Assembly: GCA_035610835.1 (NCBI GenBank)
Contig: CM069452.1
Location: forward strand, 62,954,368 to 63,018,367
DNA length: 64,000 nucleotides
Source: Ophiura sarsii
Taxonomy: Eukaryota > Echinodermata > Ophiuroidea > Amphilepidida > Ophiuridae
Reading direction: 5' to 3'
The notes beneath the pieces were generated by a model. The model was given only the letters and a program-made list of their open reading frames with translations. It searched no databases and was not told the origin of the DNA. Positions 1 through 62,268 of the stretch are shown piece after piece (within the stretch, counting starts at the first letter, position 1; the number at the start of each line of letters is the position of its first letter). The position numbers and the translations under genes were made by a program.

Positions 1-290
1 GCTACATATCTGAGCGCTAAAGTTCCATGGCACGGATTTCCTATAACCCTTACTGCTGCATTGGCTCGATTACGTCACCTACCGCAGGCATGTGGGCACG
101 AAGTTTGTGCCCGCATATGCGCTGGGGAGTTGATAGTTGCACAGACTAGGGTACAGACTGGGGTGTGGATGGTCCCGGGATCGAATCCCCGCTCGGTGAT
201 TTTTCGGTTTAAAGAAATTGTACTTTCCACCCCCCCCCCCCCCCCGCCCCCCGATACACGCAAAAACATAGCCGTGTGAGTAAGAGTTAA
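1..290 (+). mobile_element. Family A tRNA-headed SINE-like element, partial
   Basis: It shares blocks with the copy at 39784-41686: a CTGCTRCATTG..CTCGAT.ACGTC block, CACCTACCGCAGGCAT, a GGTCCCG.GATCGAATC box-B-like block, a poly-C tract and the end CAAAAACATAGCCG. The telomere-like terminus is decayed to GTAAGAGTTAAG. Box A is degraded in this copy. The left end may lie outside the window. Confidence 0.65.
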
Positions 291-393
291 GTATAACTAT
301 ACCAACCGCGCACTAAGATGCATTGAAATAAATCACAGTTCACCATTCATCCGTCGTCTAAACGAATCAAAGATCCCTCACAAAAACACACCT

Positions 394-37081: not shown

Positions 37082-38215
37082 GGGCTATTCCAGATAATAC
37101 ATACACCCCCCCTGTGGATGACCTTTTGTTGAGTTGCACGAAAGTGATGGATTTCCAGGCTTAATATTTGTAAAATGACCGGATGTCCCTTGAATGCTTC
37201 TATTTTGTCCGGATATCCAGTGGCACAATGTCAAGCTGAATTTCAACCGGATATGATTTTTCCAGGTATTTATGCCCCCTTCGAACCCCTGTGGATGACA
37301 TGTCACCAAAGTTTTTAAAATGCCGGATATCCACAAGTGGTATTTAAAAAATATCCTGGATATCCGGTGATGATGTGCTGAAATGCCCTGTGGATGACAT
37401 GTCGCCAAATGTTTAAAAATGCCGGATATCCACAAGCTGTATTTGAGAAATATCCCGGATATCCGGTTACAATTATACTGGAATGCCCTGTGGATGACAT
37501 GTCGCCAAATGTTTAAAAATGCCGGATATCCACAAGTGGTATCTGTCAAAATATCCCGGATATCCGATGACAATTATGTGCAGCGTGATAATCGTTCGAT
37601 GCACTGCTTTTTAATTGGACCAATCGATTGGTGATACGGATGGGGAAAGTATCCGGCCTCCAGTGCGGATCATACTGGCCATGCGGAATATCCAGCCAGA
37701 TATCCGGAAATATTCAGACTGTCAGCAGAAATTCCGAAACATTCTTAAGTTTTTTTTGTATCGTATCGCATCACTGTTGATGATTCAGGATATCCGGAAA
37801 TATTTAGACTTTCAGCAGTTAGACGCCGGATATCCGGAAATATTCAGATTTTCAGCAGAAATTCTGAACATTCTTTATTTTGTATCGCATCACAGTGGAT
37901 GACTCGGATATCCAGAAAAAAATATCCAATATTTATTCTTTAGCAATATAATTATAAGTTCTAACAATATCATTCATTATTATTTATATGGGCCTTCCAA
38001 CGTAACAATAAAAGTGTGTATTTGAGTATTGAGCACCAAAGTTCCCGGATGTGTGACCAATATTCAAAAAAAATTGCCGTCCAATATTTTTAGTGTGGCG
38101 CAGAAGATGTGCGCGTTAGTATCCGCAGAGAAGGTCAGTTCGGGCTAACTTATTTAGTTTTTTATCAAAACAGTCTTTATATTAAATAATATTAATATCA
38201 AATGTCTACATTTTT

Positions 38216-38267
38216 GGGTGATACAAGAATATATTACATAAATCATATTCTTGTAATGTATCACCCT
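38216..38267. repeat. Short hairpin GGGTGATACA
   Basis: Inverted arms of about 22 bp (GGGTGATACAAGAATAT against its inverse, with one extra base pair step) around an AT loop. Confidence 0.7.
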
Positions 38268-38290
38268 CAAAGCCATTAGATATCCAGGTG

Positions 38291-39783
38291 AAAATACTGT
38301 ATACATTAATTTATAAATAATAATTTATAAGCAAAAGGCACTACATGTATAAAAAGCCCCCCTGAACATTTTGGGATTTAAGTATACATACATGTAGGGG
38401 ATATGTTGGGAATTTTTTTGGGGGATATCAAGCTGAAAAGCAGAAATGTGTTAGTTTACAATCGCATCAGTAGTCAAACCTATTACGAAACTGAGTAGTG
38501 TATTAAACAGTCTTATTTATTTTGTTCAATTTCATTTCACTTTTATAGAATTCATCCATGAATTCAAACAAGATTTCACATTGTTTACATTTCCAGCCAT
38601 CTATTTTTAGCCAACTACTGCAACAATGTAACCACAGCCAATAACCTTCATGGCCCCAGGCTAACCTCAGGTCCAGTTTGTCCTTGCAATACTGCTACAC
38701 TGCTATAGTACTAATGTACATGTGTAGTGGTGGTATTATACATAGATAGTACTTGTTGCACATTTTTGGATTTGATGGCGTGTGGATAAGCTTTATATGT
38801 GTAAACCCATTTTACGAGGTAAAATTTCACAAATCTCAACAACATTGTTTTCTGGCGTATTTCCAGCATGTTTTTGCACTAGATTATTATTGTGAATGTA
38901 TCTCAATTATTGAAATAATAAATGGATGGACTACATTAAAATTAAAATAAATCAAAAGTGAAAAAAGTATGTGCGCGAATAAAGAAGAAAAAAACCATAA
39001 TCCTGTTAGAACATCCAAGGCTACACACTGTAATGGTTTGGGTTCTGATCATTTATATGTGCCCTAAATGTACCATATTATAATTGAATGAACTTATAAC
39101 AATCAGACATTATTCATTAATTCAGTGTACAGAGTTCAAGATTATGTCAAGTTTTCTGGATGTGTGAAAAGTAAAAGAAAATAGCTGAGACTTGAGAGTA
39201 TTTAATTATAATGTTGGCAACATGCATAAAAGTTTCTAATGTTTGCATTTTGATAATATTTACATGTATTTTCTGGGTCCTAAAGTAGATTTAAATAACT
39301 AAATTTAACTAATGGGAAGTTTTTGTTGAATTGAACAACAGTGATTACTATTTAAAACATACTATATTTTTTCAGCTTCGACATGAAACAAAATTCAACA
39401 TTTATAATCACAATGAAAATAAAGATAAAACATTTATTAAAAGGGACACAATGTCATGCTGATTTTTTTTTAAATTTTAATTAATTTACTTCAGAATTCA
39501 AGATGAACATTAAAAATTGCCATTATTGTAAACACCCAGCAAAACTTGATTTAAACAATATTTTAAATATGTTGGAATACCACCCTTAACCATGTAAAAT
39601 GCTGGTTGCGGCTCTACCAGCATTTTTGAAGCGACGTTTTGTTGTACAAAAAGGGCTGATTTTTCTTAATCCTGAAGTTATAGGTGTAAGTTCCTACATG
39701 TACTAATACAATTGTAAAATTATACAAATCCCAGTTTTTATCATATAATTTTGTAATTGAGGGCGCTGCCTCCACCACATCTC
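38291..39783. other. AT-rich interior of the 37082-54882 interval
   Basis: No genes, TIRs or tandem repeats that I can support. Confidence 0.5.
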
Positions 39784-39948
39784 TTAACCCTAACCGCCGC
39801 GGCTATGTTTTTGTGGGTATCGGGGGAGGGGGGAAAAAGTACTATTTTTTAACCTGAAAATCACCCAGCACCCCCCGAGATTCGATCGCGGGACCATCCG
39901 CACCCCAGTCTGTCCCTCTACCAACTGAGCTAAACTCCAAGTGCATTT

Positions 39949-41563
39949 GGGCGATTCCATGAAAATGTGACGGAGCAAAAAAACTAAAAAATGCTCCAAA
40001 AGATTTAATTTTACATTCATGTTGTGCAAAGCCTATGCAAACGTTCAGGAAAAAAATATTGCAACCATTGACCGTTGTTAACTATGATTTTTTTAAACTT
40101 TTCTTACTTCCAAAACGGTAACACGTGTTACCGAAGCAACACTTTTTTGAAAATATTTCCTAATTGATTTGATTTTAATTGATGCCACTTATAATTTTAA
40201 TCCTACTAGTTAGGCCCTATTTAAAAATAGTAAACAATTTGATAAATTCATAACCACCACTCCACTATAAGCCATCAAAATGTCGTAACGCGTGTTACCG
40301 AACTCATATTCAGTAAAACCTGCTAAAACCTTAATTTTTTTAGAGTTAGTTATCACTATTCATGGTTTATATGTTAGTTCCATTGTCAAGGTCAAACTTA
40401 ATTTTAATTTAGAAATTAAATAAATAATATACTTGTAAAGTAAAGCTAGTAAATTATGGATTGACAAAATGTAACGCGTGTTACCGTAACACGTGTTACC
40501 GACTATTTTGCAATTTACAAAAAAGTGAGAACTTAAATTCTTGTTATTATTCTAGTATTATAAACCTTGGGTAGGTACTTGCTCACAGTAGTGACCAATT
40601 GATTGCAGGTAGGTTAGTTTAAATACACAAGCAAAACAAAGTTGGGATTTTTTTTAGTGCGTTTTTTTCCGTAACGCGTGTTACCGATAATCAGAGCGGT
40701 CTTACATTAACATGAGCTGATATTTCATATTGGTGTTAGCATGAGGATTTAGCCTAAGTCTTGGGTATTACATTACAATATAAAAGATGTAAACTTCATT
40801 CAGTCTACTTTTACAGTTATACAGGGTGTATCAACAAAATTAGGACACTTTTTGATGATGGTTTAAATCTTTGTTAAAAAAACTTAAATCACTGAAGCAT
40901 GACCAATTTTTATTTCAATGTAAAGTACAACCGATAAAGATAAAATCCTGAAGAGATGAGAAAAATCCATCATTAATTAAGGAAATTGTGACCTATTAGG
41001 CAAGGCAATCTATTTTGTAGATGGTCATTCACACAGTAACAGTAGAGTAACATGAACACGCACACAATTTATGCCAATATCATGGTAATGAACCAGCTAC
41101 AGTGGGTTCGAGAACTTTTTTAATTTGCACAGAATATGCATGCATCTGATTTGTGGATTTTAGCCAGTATTGATTTGTGCCAGAATTAAATGGATTACCA
41201 AACTAATCTTTGCTATTGACTGATAGATTATTTTCTATGTTTATCATTATTGTAACGTATTGAAACGTAAACTATGTTATTTACTGGTCTATACATGTAA
41301 ATCCATTTGTACAAACCAGTAAATGACATGGTTTACGCAAATTATGCTAGTTTTCTTATTTTTCATCGGATTGATCTCATATTTTCAGGATATCATAATA
41401 ATTAATTGTGCTTTACATTGAGATTAAATTGGTCATGGTCCAATGATTATAACAAGTATTACACCGTCATGAAAAAGTGTCCTAATTTTTTTGATACACC
41501 CTGTAGAGGGGAGAATAAAGAATGGCGCCCTAAAATGTAACGCATGTTACCGTGGAATCGCCC
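39949..41563. mobile_element. GGGCGATTCC element with GTAAC-n4-GTTAC motifs
   Basis: A 1615-bp element with ends GGGCGATTCCATG and, inverted, GGGCGATTCCACG. It is inserted in a family A SINE at an ATAT site (ATTT at 39945-39948, ATAT at 41564-41567). Six copies of a 14-bp near-palindrome GTAAC-RCGT-GTTAC lie at 40118, 40285, 40471, 40486, 40671 and 41537 (the last has CGCAT). No coding region. It contains a nested CAGGGTG element. Confidence 0.8.
40822..41503. mobile_element. CAGGGTG TIR element nested in the GGGCGATTCC element
   Basis: 682 bp with TA on both sides (40820-40821 and 41504-41505). Ends CAGGGTGTATCAA.AAAATTAGGACACTTT are inverted over about 32 bp. No coding sequence. Confidence 0.8.
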
Positions 41564-41956
41564 ATATGCGGGCAGCAACTTCCTGCCCACATATGCCTGC
41601 GGTAGGTGACGTCATCGAGGCAATGTAGCAGCATATATGCGTGGCGTTTCTGGCAGTGATGTGAGATTTAGCTGGGTTAGGGTTAATGCCCCTTTAACCT
41701 TTCAATTTGGTAAGCCTTGACTTTTGTTCATTCATAATTAAACTGATCAAATTTTATTGAGTTCTTCATGAAACAAGTTGCTTCGCCTTTCTCATTTTTT
41801 ATTGATCACTAATATTTTTAATTCTTGCCAAATCTTCACAATACTTGGGAGGGGGCTGGACATTTTTATTTTTGGTACACCCGCACTTTTTTACCCTTCT
41901 AACCAAGCCTAATTTTGTTGACCCCCTTCTTGATAATTGGACCCAAAACTTCTTTG

Positions 41957-41957
<1 letters not shown>

Positions 41958-41996
<39 letters not shown>
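41958..41996. repeat. Poly(C) tract, 39 bp
   Basis: Uninterrupted C run; the neighbouring Gly-rich ORF on the minus strand is an artefact of it. Confidence 0.9.
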
Positions 41997-43176
41997 TAGC
42001 TGAACATTTCTCTGACAGGTCCTGTTGAAGTCAAAGTCAAGAATCATAGTTATAATGTATGTAGTTATAGGGCCTTATAGATAATATAACTGGCGGCAAT
42101 TACATTTAGTGAATTGGATCTCCTAGCAAAATTAGCGAAATTAAACTGCTACTGTAAAACGGGATGAATAGGGACATGGGATAGGGACAAAAATGGGGAA
42201 AAAAATTGAAATGTCAATTTTTTGTATTTGAACTTTGATGTATATTATTTATTTTCTTTTTTCTAAATGTTTAAAGAGCAATTTAATAGTGTTCAGGAAA
42301 TGGTTCATGTAGTTGATGTGAAAGAACAAATGTGGAGCCCAGGGTATCGAGAATAAAGGTGTCCGAAAAAAACCACTAAAAAATGGTGTAGTCAAAACTG
42401 TCCTGCTCCTAACTGCATAATTTGGACAAATGAGCTAGAAATGCGCCAGGACCTCGCTTTTAAGGTTCTTCGACGTACTCTTTGACATTGGTAAGACATT
42501 TTGAAAGGATTTTACATTTCAAGTTTATTTGCATTTTCCCGTAAAATTTGTAAAATCTGGGGTCAATAGGGACAGCAACATTTTTAATGAAAATATTATA
42601 CCAACTCCATATATTTAATTTTTTGAAAGAGCAGTTTAAAGGTTTTGTATTATGTGGACATAATATCATCTTAAAAGTTCGACTCATTTGAGTACAAATT
42701 AGGACAATTATGGTCTGGATAAGTGTATAAATGTCCCTATCGACCCAGTTCTATGAACGCTTGATTTTGAAAGCTTCAATTTTTGTTATTTTGCCATTGT
42801 TGACCAGAAATGTTCATATTTCTTGTTAAAACTGCTACTATAACTTGTCTAAACATATAAATTAGTTGATTTATTTTGTTTTGTTTTCGTTATATATCTC
42901 TATCAAAATATATTGTATTTGTTTGTCGACTCGACTGAGAGCGTCATGTACCTTTGAAAATCGTGAACCACTAAGCTAAGGTTAAACGATATTTGATGGT
43001 ATAGGTGACTCTCTGATCGAGGCATGAATTTTTCTTTGTAACTTATCAACAATAACAAAAATGAATATTCTTAATACTATGTTATAAATATGTTATGATT
43101 AAGAAAATAAAAGCACGAGTGCTCCATGCACTGTGGAAACGTAAAAAAAAATTTAAAAAAAAAAAAAAATGTTATA

Positions 43177-44012
43177 CAGGGTGACCCAATAAAAAGTTTA
43201 CCCAAAATGAAAGTGATATTTTTCCACTTCCTATAATTTGATATCTGTGTTTTTTTATTTGATTATAAATAATGGGTAATGAAGCATCTACCCTGAACAA
43301 ATTATTTGTTTTGGTTGAGTGGTTTTCAAGATATGGTCCATTGAACATTACATCAGCAAAACAGACTTGTCCACGGAGCATCATTTTTCTTAGGCATGGT
43401 TAAACCACACAACTGCAACATCAAAAGTAAAATTGTGAGATAGGCTTTTAACTTATATCAAAAGTAAAGGTAAGACTTAAGATAAATTTCTTGTTTTATA
43501 TGAAATTAAGAGGACAGGACGACATCAATAACCCATTATTGATCACAGGATAAAGGACGCTGCTTTGCACGATTGGAAATTGATTTAATGTATTCATGGC
43601 ACGTCATTTTTGGAGTTATTCCATAAACAAAGACTGGTGTGTGATTTTTCGCTCCGTGTGGACGTCCTTTGTCCTGTGTAGATATCAATGATGGGTTATT
43701 GATGTCGCCCTGTCCTCTTAATTTCATATAAAAACAAGATATTTATCTTAACACTCTTTCCTTTACTTTTGATGTTGCAGTTGTGTTTGACCATGCCTAA
43801 AAAAAATGATGCTCTGTGGACAAGTCTGTTTTGCTGAAGTAATGTTCAATGGACCATATCTTGAAAACCACCCAACCAAAACAAATAACTTGTTCAGGGT
43901 AGATGCTCCATTACCCATTATTTATAATCAAATAAAAGACACATATATCAAATTGCAGGAAGTGGAAAAATATCACTTTCATTTTGGGTAAACTTTTTAT
44001 TGGGTCACCCTG
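43177..44012. mobile_element. Large palindromic CAGGGTG element
   Basis: 836 bp, TA on both sides (43175-43176 and 44013-44014). The arms of about 300 bp are near-perfect inverted copies; only the centre near 43600-43640 is unpaired. No coding capacity. Confidence 0.8.
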
Positions 44013-44564
44013 TATGTGAGTCTAAAATAAATAAATAAATATGAATGAATTAAAAAATATAAAAAAATGAACGCTTGATTGAAAGCTTCAATTTTTGTTA
44101 TTTTGCCATTGTTGACCAGAAATGTTCATATTTCTTGTTAAAACTGCTACTATAACTTTATGTCTTAAACCAACTCCAAAAGTGTGCCAAATGTACTTCG
44201 TGCTAATATTCCGAGAGATGAGGGTGCTATTTTGTTCACTTAGTATTTTTCACATTTAATGACACATAATATTTATCTCCATATTTGTAGAAAAGATGAA
44301 CATTTGATACTGAATTGTTACATACATTGTATCAATTAGAATATAAAGCTCAATTCAAAGAATAACAAGTGATATTTTATGATCTTCAAGCACCTAGATA
44401 AATCGCTACCTAAATAAGTCAAATATTTATTTCCTTGTTATTAAATTGACACGTCTAAGAAATATTGTTAAACAATAATTGTGAATAGTTATAATGGTAA
44501 AAACTAAATAAAAGTGATTGTTTGGGTTTTTCAAAACTCATTCATTATCCATATTCACCCATAT

Positions 44565-46234
44565 GGGCAATTCCATAGATTGGTGATATGACCTGAAAAT
44601 TTAAAATTCAATTTGGATGCTTATTACCCATTTTGTTTTATTGTATACACTTGTAGGTATATGGGACAATCAAATGTTTGAATGATTTGTTTGTAAATTT
44701 CAAGAAATTATCGTCGTAAGTTGGAAAATGGTTTTTTCATAAAAAATAAGTGAAAAATGTGTGTTCAGGTTATGTTGACCTCTTACATATTAATATTAAC
44801 TGTAAATATAAATATTTGTTGATTTCTGAAATGCATAATACCTTAGTTTCAAGTTACCAACTATGAAAAATACCTATGCATTGACACAAGTTGGGAGGAA
44901 TCTCCTGTGTGTCCGATGGTAATTGAAAATGTAACGTGAGTAACGATAAACATCAAATAGTTGTCCTACTCAATTGTTCTTTGCTTTTAAATTCTGCCAA
45001 ATGGAATAATAATCATACTCCAGGTACTTAATTTGAAAACAGGAAATATAATGGGCTATGTATAGTTTTATTAAAATGGCAGAGGTTTGAAAACTGTAAC
45101 GTGAGTAACAATTGTAACATGAGTAACAAAAATGTAACGTGAGTAACGGCCTAAAATGCATTGTAGCAATAAGAAATGGATCTCTTTTTGCTTTTACTGC
45201 ACTTAGTTTTATTCATTTATCAGTCTTATGTCAGTCTGGCACTTCCATCACTTCATACGCAATATTTCCAGGGGTCATTGCGTGTCTTTCCAAGTTTTTC
45301 AACAAGTAAAACAGTAACTTTGTCCTCTGAAAGTCACTTTTGAAGGAAAATATTCAATTTTGTTGGTTACAAAGTGTTAAATATACATGCATAGCTTATG
45401 TACACAAATATTGTAGAGCATTTTCTGCATATTTCTTGCGTTCATCGTTCCTAAGTTCTAAAATATTGATTTTTGCGCAAAGGTGCTGAATTCGGCAACC
45501 TTGATAACTATGGTGTAATTCATCAATTATATGCAAATATTTTCACCTAACACTTGTTAAACATAATGTTAAGTTTCAAAAAAGAAAATAGCTCTCAAAT
45601 TGTTTCTGTTTTAATGCAAAATGATACCATTTTCATCAAGATATTGTGGATGTAACAGGTAGAGAGTTTGCAAAATGTCCTGTGAACTTGTCTCGCGGTC
45701 ATAATTGACTGTTTGGAGACATAATAACATTTTGGGAAATTGAATACATCATGCCAAGACTATTTCATAACATTTTGAGCTAATCTGCATGAGCTATATA
45801 AATACAATTTGAATTTGCAAAAACAAGTAACGTGAGTAACGTAACTTGAGTAACAGCTATTTTGGTCAATTTTCTGAAAAGTGTTTGTCTAATCAGATTA
45901 GTTTCACCTTGCATTTGTAGATCTTAATGTTAGCTTTATCAACCATGTTAAACTTGTTTCCAAAAATATCCTGTATGAGGACACTTTGTGAATGAAGGCT
46001 TGTTGCCATTTTATGATGGCCAATCAAATGTAACGTGAGTAACAAAAGTGTTTTCCTTCTCACTCGCAAGTCATGTCTTGTATTGCAATTCTAATTGCAT
46101 ATAAAGTTAATGTTGGGTCTTGTGTAACTACTGCAGAAAAAATAATTCTGTCAAGCTTGTTCTTCTAAAAAATATGGCACTTCCAAAAGTGTAACGTAGT
46201 GAAAAAGCGTAACGTGAGTAACATGGAATTGCCC
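44565..46234. mobile_element. GGGCAATTCC element with GTAAC-n4-GTAAC motifs
   Basis: A 1670-bp element with ends GGGCAATTCCAT, flanked by ATAT on both sides (44561-44564 and 46235-46238). Eight copies of GTAACRTGAGTAAC or close variants lie at 44931, 45096, 45114, 45134, 45827, 45841, 46030 and 46209. No open reading frame of note. Confidence 0.8.
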
Positions 46235-47554
46235 ATATGCAGAATAAAACAGGTAAAAACTCTTCAAATCTAGTGATTTTCCTACCCAGAATAATGCTGT
46301 CCCTATTGACCCCGACATCGGGGCGAATAGGGACACCGACCTTTGTAAGAAAAAAATATATACCCATCACATATTTTAAATAATTTATAGTGGCAGTTCA
46401 AAGACATTATAGATGGACATAATAATGTGCTAAACAGTTTGGCTCATGAGGCTACATTAAAAAAAACTACAATCTAGAGAGTGCTGAAACTGTCTACCCC
46501 GTTTTATGGTAGCGTATTATGACGTGTTAAAATCTGGGACCTAGGAAAGCCTTTGATTTCAATCACAAATCCATCTAAAGAACTTGACCAAGTCTTGTCA
46601 TTTGTTTCTAAGCATGTCTCAATTAAAATTGGTTATATTCATGACATTTGATGACAAATGATAATTGCTAAATGCCTGAGGACGTGGATGCTGTCACCAA
46701 AATAACACCTCCTGCAGCCATTTATAAATCTTGCAGATAAACTAAAATTGAGCAATACCTAAACAAATAGTGCATCCAAAGGCAAGATACAGTTTTACCA
46801 CTAGACACCTTTTAGTAGCCACTGAGCTATTTTAATACCAAAATCTACCAGACTACAGGAGAACTGATCTCGGTCGCCGGCAGACCAGAAGGAGACAGGC
46901 CGTTAGAAATCAGTGTATACTAAGGTCGTGATTGACCGATTCCAGTTCTATACTAGAGATGCTATATTAAGACTTATATTTAATATCAAAAATTTATCTT
47001 TTAACTTTTACAATCTGAAAAAAGCACTGATATCTAAAACATTCTTCTCAAGGATCTATGCTAAAACCAACTGGAATTCAACATCTGATCGGAATTTCAA
47101 TAATTGTCATAAGTCACACTTTTGGGCTTTCCCAGTTAGCGTACATAGCCAGGGTCACTTGTCAGGGGTTGTCTTCAAACCTGGCTAAAAAAAATAAAAT
47201 TGCATGGTCACAATCATGAATTTACCAACGGGGTATTTTTAGGAGGGAGGGGCAATGGCCCCCTGCCCCCAGGCTACGCCGTGGAAAATGACACCTTTTC
47301 AATCAGAAGCAAGCAAGGATTGCTTAAAAGGTGATAGAGCTATGCAGCCTGCCGTTTAGTTATCTCTTGGGCATTTTATTGAAACATGAAAAAAGATAGC
47401 TTATTATTATACCTTAGACCAACAAAAAAAAATGTGTTACCCTCAGCGACCAACCCTAAAATCGTAAAAACTAGTGTTGCATTTTTTGTTCCCAATTTGT
47501 TTCCCCAATTTTTTCTTCTTTTCATTTTTCAATTTTCTAGATTTAAATTTTTAA

Positions 47555-48340
47555 GGTTGTTCCTATGGATAATGTTTTATTTAATATTTTAATAGAGCTT
47601 GCTGAGCTCCACAATAATCTGAAATTTGAGATTGATCGGAGGTACGGTTTTCTAGATTATGACAATTTTATTGTCAAAAATTCATTTCAAGTCATTTTGA
47701 ATTCTTTTGTTTTGTATTGTTTTTCGGCCAACAGAGGGCAGTCTATTTTCTTTTGTTTTATATTGGGGTTTTTTGACTCCCTACATTGTAGGTTAAAAAT
47801 TTCTTGGTTTTTTGTTGTTTTTGCTCTAATTTTTTATTGAAAACTCCATTAGATTCTCGCAGCACATACATGAATGAAGGAGAGTTGTATAGTCAATATA
47901 TAATGTGGCATTACATTTAGTAAAGTGCATGAACTTGAAAAAATTAATTAAGTGCATTAATTAGACAATTTTTGTTTAAAAAAATTGTTTTTAGATAATC
48001 AAGTATAATTAATTATTCAGATATCTTACAGCCTCCCGCAGCACAGGTAACTTTCTAAAAACTATAATTAACAACCCAAAATTTCAGCTTTGTAGCATTT
48101 ATACTTTTCTTGTAAAAATTAATTAAACATTTTTGCATATTAAATATTTTGCTAGGCCAGCTAGGGGGTCAAAAAACAATAAGAAACAAAAGAAATGAAC
48201 GCTTCAATTTTGCTTCATTTTTGACAACAAAAATTGTCATCTAGAAAACCGTACCTCCGATCAATCTCAAATTTCAGATTATTGTGGAGCTCGGCAAGCT
48301 CTATTAAAATATCAAATAAAAAATTACCAGAGGAACAACC
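47555..48340. mobile_element. GGTTGTTCCT TIR element with TTAA duplications
   Basis: TTAA on both sides (47551-47554 and 48341-48344). Inverted arms of about 140 bp include CTCCACAATAATCTGAAATT. No transposase is visible. Confidence 0.8.
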
Positions 48341-49125
48341 TTAAGTGTCTAGTGTTACTATTTCTTGCTTGAAATGAATAAGTAAGCTTAAATTAAATGT
48401 TTTAGACTATTACCAGTCACACTAAAAACATTAGGGCCATCTGCAATTGATTCTTAGTTTCCTATTGGAGATTTTAAAATTGGAACCAGGTGAGAATTCA
48501 TTATTCATTATTTTGTGTCAATTCATTATTGACTTCCAAATTAATATATTAACTTCCAATATTCACTTGAGAGGTTTGAATACCAGGATGTACATAAAAA
48601 GGGCTAATGCTTCCTGTATACAAATACATCGTATCTAGGCCCCGGGAAAACGTGATTTCCTGTGATTTCCCTATAAATTTGCAACTCTAACCGAGAAAAT
48701 CCCGCAAACACAAATCAAATCTGAGACCGTAATTAACCGCGACCAAAAACTGTAACTCGTGTCGTACGCTATATAATTTTATTTTTAAAATCATGACCGA
48801 AAAATCGCCCTCAATCACTCTTTAGCTGCGTTCAGACCTGACTTTTAACTCGAGTTAAATATTTTATGACCTGTGATAAAATACCTAACATATTTTTGCT
48901 AACTCCACGTCGTTATCACGACCAAATTAACCCGTCAAATTTAACTTGACTGCCCTGCCCGTAGAGTTAATAAGCTCCGGATGTTAAATAAGAGGGGGTG
49001 CATGTGTTACACAAATCTATTAATGTTTGTATTGATCTATAAACATGTTGAGTACTGAAAACTCTCTCAAGATTTGGCTCGAGATTTAAACCAAAGCATG
49101 CGCAATTTTAAGAAAAGTGAGACAA

Positions 49126-51147
49126 CCCTTACCATACGTTCAGGCTTATTTAGCATGAATTTAAACAGAAATAACTTTCAGGCTAATAAATAAACCAGAA
49201 TATAAATTCTGGTTAAGATTCAGGCTTATTTAGCATGAATTTAAACAGAAATAATGTTCAGGCTAATTAATTAACCAGAATATAAATTCTGGTTAATAAT
49301 AAGCATGAATCATACCATGAAGCCAATTTCAGGCTAATGTCTTAGCCAGAATTTGTATTCTGTCTAAGACATAAGCCATATTTTTAATTCTGGTTAAGGC
49401 ATTAGCCTGAATTTTTATTCTGGCCAACAACCTTAGCCATAATTAGTATTCTGTCTAAGACATAAGCCAGATGTTTATATTCTGGTTAAGTCATATTAGC
49501 CAGAATTGTATTCAGGTTAATAATATAATAAACAAAATAAAAATTCTGGCTAAGTACAATGTCACATGACCTGTTTTATAACCTTTAACCTCAAGGCCTT
49601 GAACAGTCATGCTATCATATTTAAAAATGGCTTATATCAGTTGGAACATGGTTGGAACTATAGTGTGAATAAAGTGAATACATTTAAGGAAAGGAGTTGT
49701 GTGTCTGCATTATTTTGAGGGCATGTATGATCCAGTTGATCACCATTAGTTGTTGAGTGATTTTTAACAATGCTGCTGTGTGCTTTGGTCAGGTATGTGT
49801 GCTTTTATAGTTATGATCAAGCTATAATTTAAAAGTATAAGCTTATAGAAGCATTATTCTTTTATACATTGTAGATTTATTTTGAACCACTGGTTTGTAG
49901 GCCTATGATGTCCTGTATGTTGTTGAACATTTTATGACTGTGTTTATTTAATAATAGAGCAACCCTATAGGCCTATCAGATAATGGTTTAATTATTGAAT
50001 TCAGGATTTTTTAGTGACTTACCTTTTATTTTTAGCAAGCTGCAAGGTGAATATGTTCTCATTCTTTTGCAATGAAACACTTATTTACATGCAGCTATTA
50101 TGCACTTATCAATTGCATCCCCGGCCCCAGGGGCCCCAGGGATAACGGGATTAGGGCCGGGACGTTCAAATTGGCAATGTGAGGTCCCGGGTACAGTCGT
50201 GTACGGTCCCTGCAGGGTGGGCACCATTTTGTGTACGTCCCACTACAGTCCCGGCCCCCCTTGGCCGGGAAAAATTGTACAGTCTGCCTCGATCCCTTAC
50301 CCAGGACAAAGTGTGATGCGCCCCGGCTGCAGTCCTCGGGATGCGATTTCCTTCTGCAACCATTAACGGGATGCATTTGTATGTATGTTCCCTATGTGCT
50401 ATAGGCTTATTCCGTTAAGCGCATCGCATCCCTGGCTTTGTGTATTCTTAACGTACGTCCCCACTACATGCCCCTGCTAGCTGGGCACCGGATTTTTTTT
50501 GTATATTCGTGTACAGTCCCCGCATGGTCCCTGCCATGTCCTGTCACAGAGAGCCATAGAGAAACCACAATGGCAATTGGCAAAAGACCGGAAAATTACT
50601 GGCAACTGACGTCTATAAACCATGCTGTTTGCATGTGTAAAGCACATGATATATTTCTGGCTAATATTTCAGGCTAATATTTCAGGCTAAAATTCAGGCT
50701 AAAATTCAGGCTAATATTTCAGGATAACATTTCAAGCTAATATTTCAGGCTAATATTTCAAGCTTATATTTCAGGCTGATATTCAGGCTAATATTTCAGG
50801 CTGTTAATTCAGGACTGAATTTAACCTTTCATGCTTATCTAATTTAAATATTTCGGGGTTTTTTCTGGTTAGCGCAATGCTAATTTTATTTCAGGCTAAT
50901 ATTTCAGGCTAATATATCGGGCTAATATTTCAGGTTAATATTTCAGGCTAATATTTCAGGCTAAAATTTCTGGCTAATATTTCTGGCTGATATTTCTGGC
51001 TAATATTTCAGGCCTGAATTAAACCTTTCAGGCTTATCTAATTTAAATATTTCGGGGTTTTTTCTGGTTAGTGCAATGCTAATTATTTCAGGCCTTTTCT
51101 TAACAACTAAATTCAGGCTTAATTCAGGCCTGACACTTCGGTAAGGG
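49126..51147. mobile_element. CCCTTACC TIR element filled with TTCAGGCTAATA motifs
   Basis: The 2022-bp element has ends CCCTTACC, inverted at 51147, each followed by CAGGCTTA or CAGGCCTGAA. The interior holds dozens of TTCAGGCTAATA / TTCTGGCTAA variants (49140-49560 and 50650-51110). A GC-rich block of GTCCC-type repeats at 50110-50540 interrupts them. Confidence 0.65.
50110..50540. repeat. GC-rich GTCCC-repeat block
   Basis: A compositional island inside the 49126-51147 element, rich in GTGTACRGTCCC, GTACGTCCCACTACA and GGGCACC variants on the plus strand. The small ORFs here are by-products of GC content. Confidence 0.6.
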
Positions 51148-51472
51148 AATATATAATATTAAAATATCATGATTGGCAACAAAATATTGGTGTATCATCA
51201 GTAAGAGTACAATGTAAGACACAAATCAAATGTTATGTACCAAGTAAATGTCTACATAATATATACTCATTAGGCTGCGCAATGTTTACAAGCTAAATAT
51301 TCAATATCAAAATATGTTTGGCAACAAAGTTTTTTGTTTTTTTAGTTTCCATTTTCGGGTACCCGGGTACCCGCCCGAAAAACGGGTCGGGTACCCGGGT
51401 ACGAAACTACCCGTGCATTCACAGCCTTAATCAACAACCATTAACAGGCATGTATTTTGTAGTATTGTTTTC

Positions 51473-51753
51473 TTAACCCTAACCCCCCTGAGTGCTAAAA
51501 AATGCTAATCCAAAGTCCCTCTCCAAACGCATGCGCCGTCGGTTTTCGATGACGTAGTCAACCGAGCCTATATAATGAGTGCAGTATACTGCACGAATGT
51601 GTAGCTGAGGGCCGTGGCTTAGTGTTAGGAAGGTGGGGCTCGAGAACGGAGGGTCCCCGGATCGAATCCCGGCAGGTTCCCGGAGATTTAGTTGGTGTTT
51701 TTTCCTCGAAAATTGTGATCCCGGTCAAAAATCCTAAACCGGGGTTAGGGTTA
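51473..51753 (+). mobile_element. Family C tRNA-headed element, copy 1
   Basis: 281 bp with perfect 14-bp inverted ends TTAACCCTAACCCC. Box-A-like GTGGCTTAGTGTTAGG and box B GGATCGAATCCC lie at about 51614-51670. A TATAATGAGTGCAGTATACT palindrome-rich stretch lies upstream of the head. Confidence 0.8.
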
Positions 51754-51788
51754 TGGTAAAAAAAAAAAGTTTTTTTTTTCGTGTTCTA

Positions 51789-52070
51789 TTAACCCTAACC
51801 CCCCTGAGTGCTAAAAAATGCTAATCCAAAGTCCCTCTCCAAACGCATGCGCCGTCGGTTTTCGATGACGTAGTCAACCGAGCCTATATAATGAGTGCAG
51901 TATACTGCACGAATGTGTAGCTGAGGGCCGTGGCTTAGTGTTAGGAAGGTGGGGCTCGAGAACGGAGGGTCCCCGGATCGAATCCCGGCAGGTTCCCGGA
52001 GATTTAGTTGGTGTTTTTTCCTCGAAAATTGTGATCCCGGTCAAAAATCCTAAACCGGGGTTAGGGTTAA
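51789..52070 (+). mobile_element. Family C tRNA-headed element, copy 2
   Basis: Tandem copy of 51473-51753 with no difference I could find by eye, separated by 35 bp containing A(11) and T(10) runs. Confidence 0.8.
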
Positions 52071-52379
52071 GGTGCCTAATGATAAATAGTCTGCTAGACT
52101 AATCTTTATTAGGGGCTAATATCTTCAACGTTAAAATATGTTTGCCACAAAAATAATGTGTGTACAGTACTTTGTACAGAATCACTGTGACTATTTGTTC
52201 CCAAGTGTCTTGTGTCAGCTCAGCATCAGAAGATATTTACTTTCAACATTAAACTGTTATTACCACAAAATAGCTAATAAAGTGGTATTGGGTGAATTAG
52301 CTGTGGCTTAGATTTCATTTACACATTGGAGGATGAAGTCCGGTGAGGTTATAAAAAGTTTAAACAGTAAAAAAGGGAC

Positions 52380-52795
52380 TATATCAGCCCAAACTTCGTA
52401 CTTTATTATTGTAAATTCAAATCAACTTTCCAATGTGAAAATTATCTCCATATTCTAAATAGATCTCAAAGATCATTTATGTAAATTACGTATCAGTGCC
52501 CATAATCTTAGAATTGAAACTGGGCGTCACTCAATTCCAAGAATACCTCCTGAAAATAGAATTTGTCAGTTGTGTAGGGCCTACCCAAAATAAGGTTGAG
52601 GACGAGTTTCACTTTGTTATGAAGTGTACGGCATAAATAATCGTCCTTGCAGTGCACCGTTATCATCTCTTCAGGGATGTTTAAATATTGATATTAATTC
52701 TGATGAGTATGATACTTTTATCAATATTATGTGTGCTTCTGATTTTGATATTTTTAAAATAATTGCTAACTATGTTAATGAATCATAATGAAGAA
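52380..52795 (+). pseudogene. Non-LTR retrotransposon 3' coding fragment
   Basis: It encodes LRISAHNLRIETGRHSIPRI, then ENRICQLC and, after a frameshift, NKVEDEFHFVMKCT. The end is YDTFINIMCASDFDIFKI, then a stop. The SAHNL.IE.GR ... CQLC ... VEDEFHF pattern is typical of LINE-derived ORF ends. Decayed by at least one frameshift. Confidence 0.7.
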
Positions 52796-52939
52796 TTATT
52801 AATGATTTTAACAACCATATAACACAACAATACTGTCTGTAGTAGTTTAAAATAGAAAGGAATGAAAGATATTTATTAGCAGACAAGAGATTAAGACAGT
52901 ATCACATGTGAAAAAACAACACATCTAATCTCATTGATT

Positions 52940-53080
52940 TAAAGGTATATTATGTGATCTTTCCAACATCGAAAAAAAAAATTGAAAGCAGATTTTCTTG
53001 CAGATTTACATTTCTTATCATAATCGTATACATTCCAAGTTTCAGGGCAATATGATTCTTAATTACTTCAAAATAAAAAA
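52940..53080. repeat. Solo arm of the ATATTATGTGATC MITE
   Basis: It matches the right arm of 35851-36235 in reverse: AAAGGTATATTATGTGATCT, then CTTGCAGATTTACATTTCTT. No facing arm follows it directly; a shorter lone end lies at 53638. Confidence 0.65.
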
Positions 53081-53390
53081 CAAAGTCATTTTAGTGGGTC
53101 TTTATTTGTTACATTTTTTATATTTTTTTATTCTACAGTTACAATATTGAACAGTCTTGTTCTCGCATTTTATTTGGTTACATTTACAGGGTTAGTGTTG
53201 TAAGGATAGGGGTCAGGTTAAGGTTATGGCTATTAATAGTCATCATGACTAGGGAATCTATTATTTTATAAGAGATTTGGGATCAATTGGTTAAATAAAG
53301 TATCTCAAAACCAAATGGTGTTACTGTTACGTTCAGGTGGTATGAAATGGAGAAAGAAAACAAAGTTTGACAAAGAGGTTCATGGAGAGT

Positions 53391-53417
53391 GGGGGGGGGG
53401 GGGGGGGGGGGGGGGGG
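53391..53417. repeat. Poly(G) tract, 27 bp
   Basis: Uninterrupted G run in otherwise AT-rich sequence. Confidence 0.9.
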
Positions 53418-54005
53418 AGGGACTCTTCACAATTGGGTATTTTTCAAAAATATATATCTCAAAACCTAAAAAGATGTGATGATCTGGGTGGTGTCAAATG
53501 AAGGAGAAGAAGATAAAGCATTTATAATAATATACATATGTAATGTATAAACAAAATGATTCTGTGTTAAAAAAAGAAAAGCATGTGATATTTGTAAAAA
53601 AAAGCTTGAAAACTGAAATAGAACAAAATCAGTATAGAAAGGTATATTATGCGATCTTTTCCATGGAATCTGTGATTTTTCCCGAGAAATGCATATTTTT
53701 GGTCAAATTGCATTTATAACCATGAAACTCAACTAAAATATCTTGTAAGTTGTATTTATAGGTTACTTTTGTTAAATTGACGAAAATACAGCATTTTCAC
53801 CTGGATATTGAATGATATTGTTAGATATTGCTAATGAATGAATATTGGATTTTTTCCGGATGTCGGAGTCATCCACTGTGATATCAGGGCTGTCAACTTT
53901 TGGGATTTGCTGGGAGGGAGAGATACATACTCAAAAAAATAATCGTAAAACAATTTTTTCCCCGTCAGCAGCTGAAATCCTGATAAGTGGGGTGTGGGGT
54001 GTGGT

Positions 54006-54018
54006 GGGGGGGGGGGGT

Positions 54019-54054
<36 letters not shown>
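54006..54054. repeat. Poly(G) tract, 49 bp with one T
   Basis: G(12)-T-G(36), inside the right arm of the putative 37082-54882 element. Confidence 0.9.
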
Positions 54055-54055
<1 letters not shown>

Positions 54056-54886
54056 AGGGATGATGTTTTCCTCAGATCCGCACGAAAATTGCATGGTCAA
54101 AATCGCAAATGTACCCAAAATCGCAAATGTACCGACAGAAGTTAGTATGAAGTGTTGATACACACTTTAATTGAGGTAATTTTGTTGATGCGGGAGATTT
54201 TATATGCTATGCGGGAGTGCGAGAGAAAGAGTGTCTATGCGGGAGACTCCCGCCTAATGCGGGAGAGTTGACAGCCCTCTGGTGATATGCGATGCAAAAC
54301 TTAAGAATGGTTGAAATTTCTGCTGAAAGTCTGAATATTTCCGGATATCCGTAGTAATCCACCCATATGCGATACAAAACTTAAGAATGTTCGGAATTTC
54401 TGCTGAAGTCTGAATATTGCCGGATATCCGGAGTCATCCTGAATATTGCCTGGATATCCGGAGTCATCCTGAATATTGCCCGGATATCCGGAGTCATCCA
54501 CAGAGATACGCGATACAAACTTAAGAATGTTTGGAATTTCTGCTGAAGTCTGAATATTTCCGGATATCCGGAGTCATCCACAGTGATATGCGATACGATA
54601 CAAAAGAATAATAAGACTGTTCGGAATTTAAGCTGAAATGCTGAATATTACCGGATATCCGGCTGGATATTCCGGATATCCAGTTTGATATCATCAATCA
54701 AAAATAAATACAAAATAAAAATACAATTACCTGGATATCTGAGGATCAACTCTGATAATTCCCTGGATAATTTTCAATATCATTTCATTTTTGTCCGGAT
54801 ATCCACGGCAAAATATGGTGATATTTGTCTGGACATCCGGTGTCATCCACAGGGGGGGTGTATGTATTATCTGGAATAGCCCAATT

Positions 54887-55780: not shown

Positions 55781-55887
55781 AGGGGGGGGGGGGGGGGGGG
55801 GGGGGCAACAATTTGTTATCGGGACTGGGCTGGGAATTGGATCTGGACTTTATTTTTCTTTCTTGCTTTTTTTTTCCTTCTTGAAAG

Positions 55888-56310
55888 CGGCTTTTTTGTA
55901 CGCCTGCGCCTCTTTTGAATGCCTGCGAATCTCTTGTACGCCTGCGACTTTCTTGTACGAATGCGGCTTTCTTGTACGAATGCGGCTTTCTTGTACGAAT
56001 GCGACTTTCTTGTACGAATGCGGCTTTCTTGTACGCCTGCGGCTTTCTTGTACGCCTGCGACTTTCTTGTACGAATGCGGCTTTCTTGTACGCCTGCGGC
56101 TTTCTTGTACGCCTGCGACTTTCTTGTACGGATGCGGCTTTCTTGTACGAATGCGGCTTTCTTGTACGCCTGCGACTTTCTTGTACGAATGCGGCTTTCT
56201 TGTACGCCTGCGACTTTCTTGTACGCCTGCGACTTTCTTGTACGGATGCGGCTTTCTTGTACGAATGCGGCTTTCTTGTACCCTACGCCTGCGACTTTCT
56301 TGTACGCATG
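55888..56310. repeat. 19-bp minisatellite, about 22 copies
   Basis: The unit is TTTCTTGTACGAATGCGGC with GAA/GCC/GGA and GGC/GAC variants. Because 19 is not a multiple of 3 and the unit has no stop in any plus frame, all three forward frames and one reverse frame stay open across the array. Confidence 0.9.
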
Positions 56311-57715
56311 CGGCTTTTGTTCTGCATAGCCTATAGGTCTGATATAAGTCCATCCATGATACTACTACAAGTAGTTCTGTACTGTAGCCATACATACTGC
56401 ACTGTGACTGTCACTGACTGTGACTGTACTGTACGTGTAGACCGTGTGTATGGTGTGTGTAGTATTCGATACCATCGCTATAATACAATACATGTATGCG
56501 TATAGTCGCACTCGCAGCACGTAGTACTGAAATCACGTATTTTCGATGGAAATCGTGATTCAAGCAAATTATAAGCGGCTCAGTTTAGCAAACATTGTTG
56601 ACAATCTAAAACTTAATCCAAAGGCAGACATCGACAATCCGATAGGAAATTTTCTCCTCTACATGAATATCGCCGTGAAATTCCTCGAAATGTGTTAAGA
56701 CGACCTGGAACTAGCAACTTTTGGAGTCATTTTACGAACGATTATCTACTTCCGGTTGATAATTTTGCGCTAATAACCATGATGAATTTAAGAAAACGAA
56801 GGATTAATGTGGATAGAAACCTAAACAATTATGCTCTCTGAACACTTTACTTTCAACATTTCACCATTTTGTATCGATTACGTGGGTCACGTGATCATTA
56901 TCAATAATTTTGTAGGGCTTCTTTCAGGTCAGAAAATTGACCTCGTCCTCATTTCGCGGGTCAAATCGGAAATCTCGCGAAAAACGAGGATTGTAAACGG
57001 GGAACGAGACCTCATTAACTGATCGAATGCGGTCTGCCTGTTTTGTAACTCATGAACTGTGAAATTGAACCCCCGCGCTAACAAGGTCAAAGTACGGGTT
57101 ACGGGCTGTGGGCTACATTATACCATCTGGCTGTCTTTACTCATGCGCATTCATTTCAGTGGCGGGATTTACGAAAACATTAGGGACGCACTTCATAAGA
57201 ATTGTCAGAATTGTTTTCGTAATTTGAAGGAAAACTGTCAAGATAGACCCGTTTTAATGTCTTTTTACTAAAAAAACGTTCCGTGGGCCACGCTTGTTTT
57301 TTTCTTGAGAATGCAAGTTTAAGTCTTTATCTTTCATTAAGACTATAAAAAGACGTGGCCCACGGGCCAATTAAATACAATCATTTGATTAATATTGGTC
57401 TCTACGAAAATCTATCCCATATAGACTTGTGTACAAAATACGATCGCCATGTCGCAATTTTGGAAATATCCTTGGAAAATCCCCCAAATTTAGTAACAAA
57501 ATAAAACGATGTCCTTCCCCCTGGTCAGAGGCAGACGATAGGCCGGAGGCCACGGATTTTTCAATCTGGCAAAATCCTTGGTATCGTAAGAATAGGCCTA
57601 CTCGCACACCATGATACCAGCAACACTTAAACAGTGACTGGTTAGATCTAATTTAGATCCTCGGTTTACCCCAATCATGAAGCTAGCATACCCCATCTCT
57701 GATTGCCCCAATCCA
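56311..57715. other. Intergenic, one short inverted repeat
   Basis: CCGTGGGCCACG at 57281 faces CGTGGCCCACGG at 57353, about 60 bp apart. CTGTGACTGTACTG-like microrepeats lie at 56385-56440. No gene seen. Confidence 0.5.
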
Positions 57716-58215: not shown

Positions 58216-59124
58216 TTAGATATCCAAGCGCTGTGGTGGTTTACTGCATCTTCCGCTTCTGGTAGTGTACACAGGCGGTGGTGTCTCCTTGCGGCTGGAT
58301 GTTGGTCTGGGTCTTGGTGACTCTGGTGGTCTATTTCTGGACTCGGCTTGTCTATTTCTGGACTCGGCTTGTCTAGTTCTGGACTCGGCTTGTCTGGGTC
58401 TGGACTCTGGTTGTGGTTTCTCAGGTCTGGGTCTCTCAGCGGCTGGTGTGGGTATTGGCTTGTGTGGGTGGTCTTTAGGTGTTGTAGACCGTGGGGGGTC
58501 AGAGGACTTGGCAGGTCTCTCAGCTGTAGCTGTATATTGGTTTCTGGGATTGGGGACAGCCACATAGTCTTGATTTGCTTTAAAGGTTGAGAGTCTCAAG
58601 TCTTTTCTGTTTCTGCGGTATTTTCTGCCGTTGTATTCAACTACATACGACCGTGGACTGTGAAGTTGAATAACTTTGGCAGGAAGCCATTTATTGGTAC
58701 CGGGAAGAGGGGTCATTCTTACAGGATCTCCGGGTCGAAGTGGTGGAAGATCTTGATCACCTACTTTATTGTTGTAATAACGCTCTTGGGTTGATTTGTC
58801 CTTAGAGAGACGTCTCTTGACTTCTTCTGGGTTGATTGGTTTTGGTATGAGAAGATGTCTTGCTGCAGGGAGTTTATTTCTTGGTCTGCGTCCCATTAGG
58901 AGTTGTGCGGGTGAGAGATCACAACTAGTCAGTGGTGTGGTGCGATAATCTAACAACGCTAAGTACTTGTCATTGCACTTTTTCCACATATTTTTGACTG
59001 TTTGTACTGCTCTCTCTGCTTCACCGTTGGATTGTGGGTAATGGGGTGATGATGTTTTGTGTTGTATTTGGTATTCCAGGCTTACAGAAGTTTTGAAATT
59101 CGCTCGATGAGAATTGAGGACCAT
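58216..59124 (-). pseudogene. pol end: integrase third acid, C-terminal domain and repeat-rich tail
   Basis: True coding resumes at about 59085 with HKTSSPHYPQSNGEAERAV, which carries the catalytic Glu. An integrase C-terminal SH3-like region follows (LRPGDPVRM, then WLPAKVIQLHSPRSYVVEYN). The tail is basic and Pro-rich with short tandem repeats of the type RQAESRN (58325-58400). The stop is at 58216. I saw no chromodomain and no envelope gene. Confidence 0.85.
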
Positions 59125-60229
59125 TGTCTGTCCTCAGAATCTCCGGGATTCCATGGCGACTAATTTGTGATTTAAGAACTTCTATGGTTGATGCACTTGA
59201 CTGATCGACGAGTTTATCTACTTCGATAAACTTGGAATAATAATCAACTGTCAGTAGATAGGTATCTCCTTTCCAAGCAAACAGATCAGATGCTATCTCA
59301 GACCATGGTAAGTCTGGGATCTTGCTTGGTGTCATGGTTTCCTTCCTCTGCTTGTTTTGGTATGTGTTGCAGATGGAACAATCTTCAACCATGTTCTGAA
59401 CTTGTTGACTCATTCCTGGCCAGAAGAGTGTTTCGCGTGCGCGCTGCTTACATTTATTGATACCTAGATGTGATTCGTGTATCTGTTTCAGCATATCGGA
59501 TCTGATACTTGGTGGTACGACAATTCGCATTCCTTTGTACACAATCCCATCCGACACCGCGAGTTCATCTCTGTATGGCCAATATTCTCTTACTGAGTGT
59601 GGAGTGTCATTTCTTGTGTCCGGCCAGCCTTTGATGATCATTGAGTGTAATTCATTTAGCTCATTTGCTGTACGCGTTTGAAAGTCTTGATATCTACTCG
59701 GAGTTACTGCGACAAACTCAGCCATGTTTACCATGATTGGTTCTTCATCGGGCTCCGTTTCTGGTAGATTTGCTCTGCTCAATGCGTCTCCTATGGGAAT
59801 ATCAGTACCCGGTTTGTACTTGACATCCAGATCATAGGGCTGTAGCCGTAGTAGCATTGTTTGTAGTCTCATGGGAGCAGCTAGTAATGGCTTGGCGAAA
59901 ATTGACTGTAATGGCTTGTGGTCAGATTCTACCTTTACTGCTTTACCAAAAATGTATTGGTGGAATTTCTTGCATGAGTGTACAATTGCTAGCATTTCTT
60001 TCTCTATTTGTGCATAATTTTTTTCTGTGTGTGTCATTGCGCGCGAAGTGTATGCGACTGGACGACCTTCTTGTAGAAGTACGCCTCCTACAGCATAGCT
60101 ACTTGCGTCACATTGGATAGTTACTTCCTTCTTCACGTCATAGTATAGGCTAATACTGGCGACTTTGTGCAGAGATTCTTTAGCTTTGTAAAACTTTTCT
60201 CTTGCGGTTTGTCCCAGTGAAATTGGCAA
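59021..60229 (-). pseudogene. pol middle: RNase H and integrase zinc-binding and core
   Basis: The real continuation begins at about 60145 with the RNase H start TIQCDASSYAVGGVLLQEGR. Further on are the RNase H acidic residues (IEKEML, ESDHKPL), the integrase HHCC finger (HESHLGINK and CSICNTYQ) and two integrase catalytic acids in ASDLFAWKG and RTDNGPQF. The first 28 or so residues of the open frame are out-of-frame readthrough. A second frameshift at about 59080-59090 separates it from the third catalytic residue. Confidence 0.88.
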
Positions 60230-62176: not shown

Positions 62177-62268
62177 TATAATAATTACGAGGCACACATG
62201 ATGTAGGTTGTGTATAACAAGCCACGTTTATTACTTCTTTGTATACACTTGAGGTAGTGTATCTTACA
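62177..62268 (-). repeat. 5' LTR (92 bp)
   Basis: Read on the minus strand it begins TGTAAGATACACTACC and ends GTAATTATTATA. It matches the other LTR with no difference that I could see. The 3' boundary is TA rather than the usual CA. The target duplication GTGTC lies immediately outside. Confidence 0.92.

Follow-up and report, generated by a model that had tools for sequence, protein, structure and literature searches.

Putative non-autonomous DNA transposons of the brittle star Ophiura sarsii that combine a shared end and a common array layout with family-specific sites

We analyzed a stretch of 64,000 nucleotides from the brittle star Ophiura sarsii (GenBank assembly GCA_035610835.1, contig CM069452.1, positions 62,954,368 to 63,018,367; hereinafter, the window), which contains three elements, denoted E1, E2 and E3, with closely similar inverted ends and a different repeated motif inside each of them, and searched the 1.57-Gb assembly (748 contigs) for the same ends. 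E1 and E2 fall into a set of families with target-site duplications (TSDs) of 4 bp, the 4-bp group, in which the tip GGGCNATTCCA is combined with mostly A/T-rich TSDs and approximately 6-8 family-specific bipartite sites at fixed distances from the ends. This pattern is well supported; the new part of it is the fixed geometry of an array in which the site changes, rather than the difference between motifs alone. These elements are probably non-autonomous DNA transposons, possibly Sola2-like, in which arrays of transposase sites changed in concert while the geometry remained fixed. More tentatively, we propose that one lineage repeatedly re-specified its recognition code, such that an array of about eight sites was rewritten in concert in at least five families, with the geometry and the cleavage tip retained.

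The shared end and elements E1 and E2

The end pattern GGGCNATTCC occurs in the window exactly six times, as three inverted pairs that delimit E1, E2 and E3 (Table 1); in 100 shuffled sequences, the mean count was 0.41, and six was never reached. Both the shared terminus and the element-specific motifs had been pointed out in a sequence-only reading of this DNA, and both are borne out: all six copies of GTAACn4GTTAC lie inside E1, all nine copies of GTAACn4GTAAC lie inside E2 (eight sites plus a ninth match in an overlapping register), and 18 of the 20 copies of GGATATCC belong to the two inverted arms of E3, the other two being located outside, at 7390 and 9263. Genome-wide, GGGCNATTCC was found 8,169 + 8,081 = 16,250 times, compared with 947 + 951 = 1,898 matches to the reversed control pattern. 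Families were sampled from the first 100 listed places of GGGCNATTCC, all of which lie within the initial 11.7 Mb of contig C1; among them, 20 regions around pairs, 20 unpaired ends and 13 further ends were examined. Every statement on families other than E2 and E3 depends on this sample; the ends of E2 and E3 were additionally searched for by exact pattern. In the sample, the combination of the shared end with family-specific internal arrays recurs, which supports the sequence-only reading. All 15 pairs of the A/G/C type carry GGGC[AGC]ATTCCA at both ends, and 13 of them show a perfect 4-bp TSD (the misses are L020 and L023), whereas, of the five T-type pairs, four have a perfect TSD of 3 bp (AAT or ATT), none has one of 4 bp, and L031 fails at both lengths.

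E1 was inserted into ATAT, with a genuine 4-bp duplication. Its host sequence is a tRNA-like repeat, an unoccupied second copy of which is present in the window, and this paralogous empty site has one ATAT in place of the ATTT and ATAT that flank E1. Because a TA-flanked insert of about 0.7 kb lies within it, E1 is by origin an element of about 0.9 kb; among the eight E1-type copies in the sample, six are 901-921 bp long and the others 867 and 1260 bp.

E2 is represented genome-wide by 195 exact left-end 28-mers and 182 exact right-end 26-mers. On contigs C2, C3, C4 and C7, 37 of the 46 left ends could be paired, with 29 of the resulting copies spanning 1645-1671 bp, one shorter and seven longer; the 4-bp TSD was perfect in all three further copies checked. 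Three long pairs were examined, two from these four contigs and one on C6 (pairs of 2.4-3.2 kb are outside this set): by eye, one contains a long frame resembling a long terminal repeat (LTR) retrotransposon, two have inserts of 3-4 kb, and no transposase was seen in frames of at least 90 codons of the three, all of which keep the eight sites. The right end is in the expected place in 14 of 20 probed copies, and each of these 14 has the two right-arm sites, at 26 and 204/205 bp, without a single mismatch. Among the remaining six, L114 has both sites and no exact end, L113 ends in the end of another family, L104, L108 and L120 show neither site nor end, and L121 is a nested copy, its right end adjoining what is, by eye, an F22-type end, a junction that insertion of E2 into an F22 element would produce.

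A possible further element, with imperfect inverted ends CTACTGTAAAACGGG and CTACCATAAAACGGG recognized by eye, surrounds E2 at 42147-46516. A search of plasmids with E2 gave no match. In prokaryotic and viral collections, the E2-type end matched once, in one phage-like contig (L001), and a second end pattern matched four prokaryotic-collection contigs and no viral ones, each with a single end; we dismissed all of these as chance matches, those in L003 and L005 falling within a frame that encodes a conserved peptide (MGYSIRN..RYR), sulfatase-like by eye.

Variants of one site in a common layout

According to the rule for non-autonomous elements in the relevant part of the Repbase paper (PMC4455052), relatives have TSDs of the same length and can be aligned over positions 1-11 with at most one mismatch. 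E1, E2, F22, F23 and F33 agree in this respect, with 4-bp TSDs and the tip GGGCNATTCCA; the F70 end reads GGGCAATTCCG, with one mismatch, and the other F70 end and the TSD were not found. The sites of E1, E2, F22, F23 and F70 (Table 1) are better regarded as variants of a single bipartite site of 13-14 bp than as unrelated motifs, because shuffled sequences never reached the total similarity of the terminal sites. In the direction from the right tip to the interior, the terminal sites in these five families are GTAACACGCGTTAC, GTTACTCACGTTAC, GTAACAGCGTGAC, GTTGCGGAATGAC and GTTGCGGACGTAC, and none of 2,000 shuffles equaled their total pairwise similarity, although single pairs range from 0 of 3,000 shuffles up to p = 0.115 (E1-F22). 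The E1 and E2 sites, in the same orientation, are identical at 11 of 14 positions, a level that none of 3,000 shuffles attained, so that the earlier description of the motif as "replaced wholesale" is too strong for these two families.

The layout of the sites, compared in one copy per family, is common to the right arms of five families, E1, E2, F22, F23 and F70: one site starts approximately 14 bp from the right end, another at 173-195 bp, and a pair at 369-406 bp. On the left, E2, F22 and F23 have one site at 359-368 bp followed by three at 524-572 bp. Random placement did not reproduce the right-arm layout in any of 200,000 trials (nor in any of 1,000,000 with three sites per tested interval) or the left-arm layout in any of 1,000,000. 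The positional homology rests mainly on this layout since, once the sites are masked, the interiors hardly align between families: BLAST matches are limited to 18-38 bp in three of the ten family pairs, and global alignment scores exceed all 20 shuffles in one of five pairs (F22/F23), with E2/F22 scoring lower than the mean of the shuffles and the three remaining pairs between the mean and the maximum.

Within families, the sites are strongly conserved. Differences from the family consensus at non-CpG positions amount to 3/509 in sites compared with 288/7138 elsewhere in E1 (nine copies), 0/345 and 36/2549 in the right arm of E2 (15 copies), 0/262 and 36/5030 in F22 (five copies), and 1/200 and 51/2839 in F23 (three copies). 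Pooled, these are 4/1316 and 411/17556 (Fisher p 7e-9, a value to be taken with care because the copies have common ancestry); CpG positions are less clear-cut, for example, 15/290 and 20/198 in E1.

One additional family (L087/L090, L094 and L095) has GGGCAATTCC ends and a total of 24 copies of AAAACGTT in L087 and L090; its ends adjoin AAAACGT, as if the elements targeted their own motif.

Table 1. Elements and sites in the window, and sites of the families in the genome (coordinates refer to the window)
Feature	Position	Strand	Remarks
E1, non-autonomous element	39949..41563	+	4-bp TSD ATTT / ATAT (ancestral ATAT), ends GGGCGATTCC
E1 site 1	40118..40131	+	GTAACACGTGTTAC
E1 site 2	40285..40298	+	GTAACGCGTGTTAC
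E1 sites 3 and 4	40471..40499	+	tandem pair, starts 40471 and 40486
E1 site 5	40671..40684	+	
E1 insert	40822..41503		ends CAGGGTG...CACCCTG between TA dinucleotides; absent from consensus of nine aligned E1-type copies
E1 terminal site	41537..41550	+	adjoins right inverted repeat
tRNA-like repeat, paralogous, without E1	53..291	-	empty site with single ATAT
E2, non-autonomous element	44565..46234	+	4-bp TSD ATAT/ATAT, ends GGGCAATTCC
E2 site 1	44931..44944	+	GTAACGTGAGTAAC
E2 sites 2-4	45096..45147	+	triplet, starts 45096, 45114, 45134
E2 sites 5 and 6	45827..45854	+	tandem pair, starts 45827, 45841
E2 site 7	46030..46043	+	
E2 terminal site	46209..46222	+	adjoins right inverted repeat
E3, long element	37082..54882		3-bp TSD AAT/AAT, 41-bp identical terminal repeats
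E3 left arm	37082..37980	+	10 GGATATCC
E3 right arm	53805..54882	-	8 GGATATCC
E1-type family			site GTAACGCGTGTTACCG; right-tip starts 14, 192, 377, 392 bp (L015)
E2 family			site GTAACGTGAGTAAC; right-tip starts 13, 192, 381, 395 bp (window), left-tip 367, then 532/550/570 bp
F22 (L022/L024/L025 and others)			site GTCATTCCGCAAC; right-tip starts 15, 195, 393, 406 bp (L022), left-tip 368, then 524/539/552 bp
F23 (L023/L026/L085)			site GTCACGCTGTTACCG; right-tip starts 14, 173, 369, 383 bp (L026), left-tip 359, then 538/558/572 bp
F70 (L070/L100)			site GTTGCGGACGTACA; right-tip starts 14, 181, 371, 392 bp (L070)
F33 (L027/L033)			site CGGCGTTATCC

Element E3 and the group with 3-bp duplications

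The sequence-only reading treated the three elements as one family with 4-bp A/T duplications. This holds for E1 and E2; E3, despite a tip that matches theirs at ten of eleven positions, is a group distinct from them because its TSD is 3 bp long rather than 4 bp. All six E3-type pairs with both ends examined have a matching TSD of 3 bp, and none has one of 4 bp, which places E3 outside the E1/E2 group under the Repbase rule; an extra left end, L040, which shares the right end of L041, has no TSD match to that right end, and 16 of 17 single E3-type ends adjoin AAT or ATT. The refutation test that the earlier reading had suggested, carried out on the C1 sample and with the exact-pattern searches for E2 and E3 ends, left the claim for E1 and E2 standing and separated E3.

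The genome listing contains 38 exact 24-mer ends of the E3 family, with eight pairs spaced 9.6-22.8 kb apart. In the window, E1, E2 and other repeats are located within E3, the left arm of which contains a tandem array of a 99-bp unit; no transposase was found in the interior. The 9.6-kb E3-type copy L064 has long segments in common with the window E3, mostly at 87-98% identity, and contains neither an open frame of 150 codons nor a Pfam match in six frames. The family (L064 and its relatives L065-L068) consists of repeated elements at least about 9.6 kb long. Two fragments are found again in other copies, in the form of frames of 124-185 codons, and one of them resembles, by eye, the tail of a non-LTR reverse transcriptase.

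As a separate group, possibly a sister lineage, E3 would cut 3 bp apart at an AWT target (W, A or T) and use GGAnnTCC palindromes. That E3 instead belongs to the E1/E2 lineage, with a transposase cutting at a 3-bp instead of a 4-bp stagger, is suggested by ends that align with one mismatch over 11 bp and by targets that are AWT, often AWWT, with identical outer A and T. We consider this unlikely: the TSD is 3 bp long in six of six E3 pairs and four of five other T-type pairs, compared with 4 bp in 13 of 15 A/G/C-type pairs, and the type and spacing of the sites differ as well. Zator transposons also make 3-bp target duplications, as E3 does. PF07592 (ISAzo13-like transposase, Zator) matched nothing in this genome, and nothing in the 14 control genomes either; Zator is among the names that appear in the part of the Repbase paper cited above (PMC4455052).

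Other T-type elements, L029, L031 and L032, are filled with GGAATTCC or GGAAATCC (16 copies of GGAATTCC in 697 bp of L031), with 3-bp TSDs in L029 and L032. These arrays may derive from the tip, since the half-site TTCCAG also occurs there in all three.

Proposed mechanism, alternatives and known systems

Taken together, these observations are best explained by a model in which E1 and E2 belong to a large group of cut-and-paste DNA transposons that are non-autonomous and would be mobilized in trans by transposases encoded elsewhere. The tip would be recognized, for cleavage, by a conserved catalytic portion of the transposase, and the bipartite sites would be bound by a faster-evolving DNA-binding domain, or by an accessory protein, that unites the two ends. 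Whenever the binding domain changed, the whole array would have changed to match, with the spacing of about 160-200 bp maintained, giving rise to E1, E2, F22, F23 and F70. The proposal in the sequence-only reading, modular arrays matched to different DNA-binding domains, is consistent with the conserved site positions in five families; the domains themselves were not seen.

Several observations weigh against this model. No transposase was detected in the E3 interior, in L064 or in the three long E2 copies, and both binding and co-evolution with a binding domain are therefore inferred. With regard to the layout, E1 matches in the right arm only, not in the 1+3 left arm; the test omitted an F70 site, inverted and weaker, that lies at 426, within the tested interval; the tested families were chosen because a site was recognized in them; and part of the layout may reflect plain descent, given that the F22 and F23 interiors keep some similarity. 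The common layout is not followed by F33, the sites of which do not adjoin an end and show no clear conservation (1/42 in sites and 139/3787 elsewhere, in two copies that were not pooled), or by the AAAACGTT-rich family of L078/L087, which has another pattern. L072 and L080 have a terminal site at 14 and no second copy (at up to four mismatches) in 701 bp, and most of the other ends sampled on C1 showed no clear site. Finally, some TSDs do not fit AWWT, namely, ATAG, ACAT, GTAT and TGGA, as well as ATGT and ATAA in long E2 copies.

Under an alternative explanation, the motifs serve a host protein (a transcription factor, an insulator or a silencing factor) and not transposition, with the arrays aiding the persistence or expression of the elements. 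A spacing of 160-200 bp is close to that of nucleosomes, the elements lack visible coding sequence, and the motifs extend along their entire length, all of which would suit a host protein. Yet, in five families, one copy of the site is located 13-15 bp from the right end, beside the inverted repeat, which points to end recognition, and families in a single genome use different sites, so that several host proteins would be needed; accordingly, we regard this explanation as improbable. We give slightly less credence still to the spread of arrays by recombination or gene conversion without selection for binding, that is, neutral, satellite-like concerted evolution. Conversion is expected to produce the concerted change of about eight copies, and tandem pairs and triplets, as well as the 99-bp tandem unit of E3, are present; against this, most copies of the site in E1, E2, F22, F23 and F70 are dispersed, with different flanks and with positions conserved between families, and, at non-CpG positions, the divergence of the sites is approximately one eighth of that in the DNA around them. 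Coincidental sharing of the end by unrelated transposons, conceivable in that the end comprises no more than about 10-11 bp and the reversed-pattern control would account for about one in nine of the genomic matches, is highly improbable and, for the 4-bp group, contradicted by the genome-wide excess, the consistent TSD lengths and the common layout; for E3, it may hold.

If one lineage did repeatedly re-specify its recognition code, at nucleosome-like distances from the ends, these families would form a natural set of DNA-binding domains, each matched to its own site, and many mutually independent transposition systems with one architecture. The co-change of transposase and site, and the escape from cross-mobilization, are hard to test because few matched pairs exist; where the same tip and geometry are combined with different sites in one genome, a comparison between families could directly test whether a DNA-binding domain co-evolves with a dispersed array. 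From the spacing of about 160-200 bp also comes the testable idea that the transposition complex, or chromatin packaging, is organized by nucleosome-length intervals.

Among known transposons, Sola2 elements, reportedly described by Bao et al. in 2009, have GRG termini, with which the GGG termini found here would presumably agree. In the portion of PMC3627910 concerned with it, Sola2 has the TSD AWWT, with ATAT, AAAT and ATTT as examples, and the 4-bp group includes the fitting TSDs ATAT, ATTT and AATT; a mostly A/T-rich 4-bp TSD, short inverted repeats, and families with the same end region and different interiors are further common traits. Unlike Sola2 as described there, the elements analyzed here contain a site array, E3 has a 3-bp TSD, and no Sola2-type DDD transposase was seen in E3, L064 or the three long E2 copies. 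Since several TSDs do not conform to AWWT and the searches for a transposase found none, we treat Sola2 as a tentative lead for the 4-bp group, not as a result.

The target duplications of hAT transposons are 8 bp long. In both Hermes, a hAT transposon in which subterminal repeats bound by BED domains need precise placement relative to the end (in the pertinent section of PMC10368747), and maize Ac/Ds (likewise, PMC3260210), the subterminal repeats resemble the present sites in being precisely placed; the termini are different, and the Hermes sites, in the same section, lie within tens rather than hundreds of base pairs of the end. Conserved ends with divergent repeated subterminal motifs are already known from CACTA (En/Spm) transposons: in the passages of PMC2613891 on the soybean Tgm subfamilies, the inverted repeats are constant, and the subterminal motifs and their putative binding proteins diverge, even within one species. 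These CACTA elements differ from those described here in their CACTA termini (GGGC in our case), their 3-bp TSD and the location of their sites, which extend no farther than 159 and 732 bp from the ends; in the present elements, single sites follow at intervals of 160-200 bp or so, and the layout is common to five families in one genome. The sequence-only reading knew of no described superfamily with this exact combination; the A/T-rich 4-bp duplication is nevertheless matched by Sola2, reported with AWWT, and the conserved ends with divergent motifs by CACTA. Coral CMITEs, families of miniature inverted-repeat transposable elements in one animal genome that are linked to piggyBac and have ends and interiors evolving at different rates, show the opposite pattern in the relevant part of PMC2872659, the interior being more conserved between families than the inverted repeats. 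A string search of the literature, with Repbase outside the search, found no published description of the ends or sites reported here: 23 papers contain one of the strings, and the 15 of them that were listed are unrelated by title.

The window had no Rfam match at gathering scores. An 842-bp imperfect palindrome, 79% self-complementary and with TACAGGGTGACCCAATAAA ends, occupies 43174-44015. On the minus strand, the coding region of a Ty3/gypsy-type LTR retrotransposon extends over 58216-62184 in three long frames with protease-like, reverse transcriptase, RNase H and integrase parts, and two pieces at 31328-33610 weakly match an AMP-binding enzyme, below the Pfam cut-off, and are the likeliest host gene seen in the window. 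A 19-bp minisatellite of approximately 22 copies, open in several frames, is located at 55887-56317.

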